Shown here piece by piece: positions 4,316 to 5,516 of a stretch of DNA of 64,000 bases; within the stretch, counting starts at the first letter, position 1, and every line of letters starts with the position of its first letter. Made by a program: the position numbers and the translations under genes. Where the stretch lies: assembly GCA_021604505.1 (NCBI GenBank), contig BQJC01000001.1:1323501-1387500 (forward strand), given 5' to 3'. Under the pieces are notes generated by a model. That model was not told the origin of the DNA. It was given only the letters and a program-made list of their open reading frames with translations, and searched no databases. The stretch comes from Nitrospinaceae bacterium. GTDB lineage: Bacteria; Nitrospinota; Nitrospinia; Nitrospinales; VA-1.

Positions 4316-4594
4316 AAAAATTTCCTCCCTGAAATCCAAATCCTTCGAGACAGCATCCATCCAAAAAATAGAAAGCCAATCTCATTGCGTCAATCATCCT
4401 TGTTGACACCTATATAGATTTTCGGTTTAAATGCAGGATTCTTGAGTTTTTTCGGAAAAGAAATCTTGGAAAAATTAAAAATTTCAAGAGATTAGCCTGT
4501 AACTGCGAAAACACCTCATTTCACTTTGGGAAAATCGATCTTGTATCGATTGAAAGCGATCATTTTTTTGTCTGAATCAATTTAAGCCGCGGAA

Positions 4595-4651
4595 TTTCAA
4601 AAGTTTTGAAAAACTTATAATATTGCCTTTCGGATAATATTATAGTATCAT
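4595..4651 (+). promoter_or_regulatory. Palindromic operator and promoter of candidate small RNA
   Basis: A perfect 17-base dyad, TTTCAAAAgTTTTGAAA (4595-4611), lies four bases before a consensus -10 TATAAT (4616-4621), in the position of the -35 region. This is the classic placement of a repressor or activator site. A second promoter-like pair, TTGCCT (4623-4628) and TATCAT (4646-4651) with a 17-base spacer, follows immediately. Either would start a transcript that runs into the terminator at 4681-4731. Confidence 0.5.
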
Positions 4652-4731
4652 AATAAACAACGAGTTACCTCCCGTTAGCGGACCCGCTTGTGAGCATGGA
4701 CTCCCCCGACTCCCAAGCGGGTCTTTTTTTT
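4628..4731 (+). ncRNA. Candidate small RNA with C-rich anti-Shine-Dalgarno motifs
   Basis: The transcript would be about 75-105 nt. Its 3' end is an intrinsic terminator: GACCCGCTTG (4681-4690) pairs perfectly with CAAGCGGGTC (4714-4723), followed by eight T. No protein gene on this strand reads into it; the nearest plus-strand gene ends at 3850. The unpaired parts carry CCUCCC (near 4668) and, in the terminator loop, CUCCCCC and CUCCC, all complementary to ribosome-binding sites. C-rich single-stranded loops are typical targeting sites of trans-acting small RNAs. It has no similarity to 6S, tmRNA, SRP or RNase P RNA that I can see. Confidence 0.5.
4681..4731 (+). terminator. Rho-independent terminator
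   Basis: A ten-base-pair perfect stem (4681-4690 with 4714-4723), a 23-nt loop, then T8 (4724-4731). It ends the candidate small RNA. Confidence 0.85.
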
Positions 4732-5100: not shown

Positions 5101-5316
5101 TTAGTGGTCTCCGTATCTGTATTCAGATCCATCCGGAAACTGTGCGTCCAGGGTTTCCTTGACCCATTGCGGAACTTTACGCCGATCCGAGGTTTGCAGA
5201 GACATGGACTCTTCTGCTTTCCGGAAATTATCCCAATGCGTTTTTTTAAGATCGTCACTGGACACCACTTTTTTCATCGTACCGTCTGGATTCAATACTT
5301 TTACTTCATAAAACAT
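5101..5316 (-). CDS. Small hypothetical protein
   Basis: A 71-residue soluble, charged protein beginning MFYEVKVLNPDGTMKKVVSS and ending GSEYRYGDH. The start at 5316 is chosen because GAGGAGG lies six bases upstream; an in-frame ATG at 5337 would place that site inside the gene. The N-terminus predicts a short beta hairpin followed by helices. It stands alone between the small-RNA region and a divergent metallochaperone gene. I do not recognise the family. Confidence 0.6.
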   Translation of the reverse strand: MFYEVKVLNPDGTMKKVVSSDDLKKTHWDNFRKAEESMSLQTSDRRKVPQWVKETLDAQFPDGSEYRYGDH

Positions 5317-5516
5317 GACCGCCTCCTCAGTTGTCATTGAATTTCAACAACTTATAAGGCAAGGTTTATGCCAAAACGTATAAAGTGTTTAAAACCAATT
5401 AGTTATACTGAAAAAACCGATTTTTTGAGTGACGCCAGATTTTGAAATATCATACAATTTATGCCAAATGTGACTTAAATTGTCACCCGAGCACTGAAAA
5501 ATGGGAGGTTAATGCG

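Follow-up and report, generated by a model that had tools for sequence, protein, structure and literature searches.

A conserved C-rich small RNA gene in Nitrospinota with predicted anti-Shine–Dalgarno motifs

In the genome of a Nitrospinaceae bacterium, the flgM gene (minus strand) is separated from a pair consisting of a small open reading frame (ORF) and a CopZ-like (HMA) gene by intergenic DNA that contains a hairpin followed by a run of T residues. Does this locus, part of a 64,000-nucleotide (nt) window (contig BQJC01000001.1, positions 1,323,501–1,387,500), encode an RNA of its own and, if so, how might that RNA act? Our analysis of sequence and conservation indicates that positions 4657–4731 on the plus strand are a previously undescribed C-rich small RNA (sRNA) gene, conserved across an order of marine bacteria within Nitrospinota, with a predicted transcript of about 75 nt. 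Matches to the LRR protein encoded nearby come only from Nitrospinaceae or Nitrospinota metagenome assemblies, apart from one record titled Nitrospirota. A first-pass annotation had proposed a standalone sRNA here, with exposed C-rich motifs complementary to Shine–Dalgarno (SD) sequences, and this central proposal is borne out by conservation and covariation.

The promoter and the RNA together form a conserved island inside otherwise diverged intergenic DNA. Across five congeneric loci, block identity is 0.73–0.95 over positions 4619–4718, with 0.95 at 4659–4678, and the block at 4619–4638 reaches 0.83, compared with about 0.37 just upstream. In this block begins a predicted sigma-70-type promoter, TTGCCT-17-TATCAT (4623–4651, plus strand; 9 of 12 matches), and similar elements of the form TTGN-(16–18)-TAnnnT lie in the same place, directly 5′ of the RNA, in most relatives, a clear −10 box being wanting in G047x and G045x. 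Because this promoter is conserved, the RNA would be expected to start near 4657 and to measure about 75 nt, the start being placed from the −10 box and the end from the U tract. The first-pass annotation had instead assigned the promoter to a TATAAT, whose letters are present at 4616–4621; we rejected this as the main promoter because its position is not conserved among relatives. Also present to the letter is the 17-bp dyad that had been assigned a regulatory role (TTTCAAAAGTTTTGAAA, 4595–4611; 8-bp arms with a 1-nt centre). It lies outside the conserved unit, in blocks (4579–4618) that show background identity of 0.36–0.37 in the five congeneric loci; such palindromes occur at a mean of 0.8 per 64 kb in Markov-1 simulations of the window; and the genome scan suggested as a route to its regulator returned a single copy in 3.64 Mb. 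We therefore rejected the dyad as an operator.

At the other end of the gene, the annotated terminator held up: the terminator-type hairpin GACCCGCUUGUGAG...CUCCCAAGCGGGUC (4681–4723, plus strand), recovered by both folding and covariation, is followed by eight T residues (the U8 tract, 4724–4731, plus strand). The sequence from 4657 to 4731 folds at −27.7 kcal/mol (z = −4.2 relative to shuffles). On these signals, the sRNA is predicted to have its own promoter and terminator, independent of the neighbouring genes. A conserved intrinsic terminator without a functional short transcript would share the hairpin's shape and could serve the convergent gene at 5101–5319 (minus strand); however, the upstream gene, flgM, points away, no U tract follows the hairpin on the minus strand, and both the promoter and the unpaired 5′ part of the RNA are conserved although a terminator needs neither. 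We regard this explanation as very improbable. A coding role can also be set aside, as the first-pass annotation had it: the ATG of the small ORF seen in congeners (ATGAGTTACCTCCC) is replaced by ACG in G005 as well as in the window, and 1- and 2-base indels separate relatives, so no reading frame is conserved.

How widely is the RNA distributed, and is its structure maintained? Our comparison covered 77 Nitrospinota genomes, most of them metagenome-assembled genomes (MAGs), in which absences, such as that of this family from genera g3, g7 and g8, are soft. A search at the DNA level recovered the RNA from every one of the four congeners and from a single further genus; among these seven sequences, four pairs had already changed on both sides, and a covariance model built from them retrieved distant copies throughout the order. 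One congener, the G003 MAG, contributes two loci; the entire syntenic block is present there twice, in diverged form (contigs C33 and C35; L003 and L009), which probably reflects mixed strains in the assembly. The refined model, R2, finds 23 places in 20 of the 77 genomes (E <= 3e-8), spanning families f1–f4 with one candidate in f5 (G059); 17 of the 23 places had served to build the model. Two weak matches of model R1 (L029 and L030) were dropped as repeat-like sequences of the CCCCCTTGTCAGGGGG type. Each of the 15 helix pairs shows a two-sided change among the 17 aligned sequences, paired cells make up 96.7%, and none of 500 shuffles reached any of these measures; because the alignment had been fitted to the structure, the result is biased in that direction. 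RNAalifold, unaided, predicts 14 of the 15 pairs. The alignments therefore bear out the suggested covariance and conservation check and indicate that the RNA structure is under selection. Most distant copies also share the neighbourhood (TatA)–LRR–flgM–RNA–HMA–DegP across families, and because synteny is independent of the covariance model, it argues strongly against chance matches. Within its own genome the RNA is a single copy, with no paralogue above chance; its exact seed was not found in viral contigs, nor similar DNA in plasmids.

This arrangement raises the possibility that the RNA does not act in trans but serves the downstream HMA gene as a 5′ leader or attenuator. Consistent with a leader, HMA lies around 100–270 nt downstream on the same strand in genus g14 (f2), in the syntenic f4 copies and in G005. 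By contrast, in the window's own genus it is 760–940 nt away, behind an antisense gene, the distance grows to 2.2 kb in G007 and to 1.2 kb in G037 and G050, and no HMA gene is present in the fetched locus of three copies. In f2 and f4, moreover, HMA appears by eye to have its own promoter after the hairpin, and no alternative antiterminator helix appears. A leader is thus unlikely, and the RNA is probably not one.

Which parts of the RNA would do the work? The 5′ part forms no conserved helix and bears a pyrimidine-rich anti-SD motif, which in the window is CCUCCC (4668–4673, plus strand), inside GAGUUACCUCCC, invariant in genera g1 and g2. Elsewhere it reads UUUUUCUCC (f2), UUAUCCUC or UCCCUC (f4) and UUAUCCUCCUUUU (f3), and a CUCC-type motif occupies the unpaired 5′ part in all 22 inspected copies. 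The hairpin loop, which carries CUCCCCC in the window (4701–4707, plus strand), is C-rich in 20 of these 22 copies, mostly as CUCCCC, and the stem letters vary freely. The stem changes while the 5′ motif and the C-rich loop stay, a pattern suggesting that the RNA works through its unpaired C motifs. Of the three exposed C-rich motifs in the first-pass annotation, these two were confirmed, one 5′ and one in the loop; the third, CUCCC at 4710–4714, is paired in the 3′ arm of the stem and differs in relatives. In g1 and g2, a weak 4-bp helix (AACG/CGUU or AAUG/CGUU), supported by one-sided change only, may display ACCUCC in its loop. The RNA thus carries the exposed, conserved C-rich motif complementary to SD sequences that is the mark of the anti-SD class of sRNAs.

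Given these motifs, we consider it fairly likely, by analogy with known sRNAs, that the RNA is an autonomous, Hfq-free regulator that acts in trans by pairing its C-rich seeds with the SD sites of mRNAs, lowering their translation. Its sigma-70-type promoter would drive transcription, which would end at the hairpin; the exposed CCUCCC-type 5′ seed and the second seed in the terminator loop would pair with GGAGG SD sites; and this pairing would be expected to block 30S loading and so reduce translation. A search for Hfq (PF17209) gave no match in any of the 77 genomes, whereas five of the control genomes were positive.

Sequestration of SD sites by C-rich sRNAs has precedents, and the Nitrospinota RNA looks as if it works like several of them. 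In Listeria, LhrC binds the SD region of lapB mRNA, with Hfq being dispensable (PMC4132741); it is present in five copies and combines two stem-loops with three redundant CU-rich motifs, whereas the Nitrospinota RNA has two exposed motifs, one strong hairpin and a single copy in its own genome. RsaE of Staphylococcus, known as RoxS in Bacillus, pairs two UCCCC seeds with SD sequences (PMC9217828) and differs in structure. With RepG of Helicobacter pylori, whose pairing site is a C/U-rich terminator loop (PMC8295292), the RNA shares the C-rich loop; however, the RepG target is a homopolymeric G-repeat in the tlpB leader, whereas in the Nitrospinota RNA the principal anti-SD element seems to be the 5′ seed. 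The rhizobial alpha-r14/NfeR1 RNAs conserve an anti-SD motif in unpaired regions while their stems vary (PMC10746234), but they form three hairpins, each with CCUCCUCCC; the Nitrospinota RNA combines a 5′ seed with a single covarying hairpin and lacks CCUCCUCCC. CJnc230 of Campylobacter, an sRNA 98 nt long, likewise has an anti-SD stretch that is single-stranded (PMC11187230), but it is RpoN-dependent and has a CCUU motif, with two stem-loops flanking that stretch. As the first-pass annotation had anticipated, no Rfam 15 family, RsaE and alpha-r14/NfeR1 included, matched the window RNA or the scanned relatives at or above its gathering cut-off (the best weak matches were suhB, at 17.3 of 41 bits, and PyrR, at 18.6 of 54 bits), and our literature search on small or noncoding RNAs of Nitrospina and Nitrospinota returned no description of such an RNA. 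Because the defining features of LhrC and alpha-r14 are missing and neither an Rfam model nor a published description covers it, we conclude that the RNA represents a new family whose C-rich anti-SD working design is already known.

Which mRNAs might be regulated? In its own genome, the most complementary further site (17-nt seed-region complement, <=3 mismatches; n = 1) is ATAACAGGAGGTAATTC, an SD sequence that TTA (3 nt) separates from the start codon ATG of a 130-amino-acid c-type cytochrome lipoprotein, with a predicted duplex of −27.9 kcal/mol in G000. Neighbouring genes were rejected as targets, as their duplex energies are inconsistent; where flgM leaders of f2 gave extremely large energies, the sequence paired was the antisense strand of the RNA gene itself. 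The flgM leader of the window (4318–4338, minus strand) does contain a conserved AUUUC-AGGGAG-GAAAU, the SD sequence of a short ORF that encodes a non-conserved protein. This element might fold into a small hairpin and shows complementarity to the seed of the sRNA; it is a candidate regulatory site, although its duplex with the sRNA is no better than those of shuffled seeds.

Several observations weigh against the anti-SD interpretation. The transcript itself is a prediction from sequence and conservation, and the U tract, perfect in the window, is interrupted in several relatives, so termination strength may differ among them. No target is conserved throughout the genus: G000 and G001 (−18.6 kcal/mol) form a good cytochrome duplex, which in G002–G005 is weak or misplaced. 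Complementary sites are not enriched, and because a reversed control pattern matches more often, the cytochrome c lipoprotein is a candidate target as a lead only. The lack of a conserved mRNA target would also suit an RNA that acts otherwise, either through a bound protein or as a sponge for another sRNA, in which case the C motifs would be the sites of that contact. Yet the motif varies from CCUCCC to UUUCUCC and UCCCUC while always remaining complementary to SD sequences, and we judge this alternative quite unlikely. Pairing with SD sites remains our preferred account.

The R2 search also picked up a second conserved, C-rich sRNA-like element, in which GGAAUU-n-AAUUCC-ACCCCUUUU precedes a hairpin that has UACCUCCC as its loop, and a long U tract comes last. 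This UUCCACCCC/UACCUCCC family has the same architecture as the first, and a model built for it, R3, gives 23 strong matches (E <= 7e-11) and one further match at 4e-9; they lie in 23 genomes of f1 (L118–L126, L132, L133, L178–L200 and L204), and none was found in the window's genome. Its members sit elsewhere in the genomes, adjoining an ankyrin-repeat gene in several; covariation is weaker than in the first family, and the two loci scanned (L120 and L125) have no Rfam match. R3 weakly matches three members of the first family, and the two may share ancestry or merely a design.

Two further features flank the sRNA gene. Upstream of flgM, a conserved island (4379–4478, minus strand) contains CTCAAG-N14-ACCGAAAA, which resembles a sigma-28 (FliA) promoter; family f2 has CTCAAG..GCCGAAAA just before flgM. 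The convergent gene at 5101–5319 (minus strand) encodes a small protein, MFYEVKVLNPDGTMKKV..., that adjoins the sRNA within the genus (69–81% identical) and has no match in Pfam or NCBIfam.

Nitrospinota include major marine nitrite oxidisers. As a speculation that we hold to be less likely than not, the phylum may have a specific set of C-rich sRNA families, two or more in number, each imitating the anti-SD tail of 16S rRNA and serving as global, Hfq-free regulators of translation, for example of cytochrome and energy-metabolism genes. The covariation-supported family and its alignment provide a direct handle on post-transcriptional control in Nitrospinota, and they add a lineage with no detectable Hfq to those in which the C-rich anti-SD design occurs.
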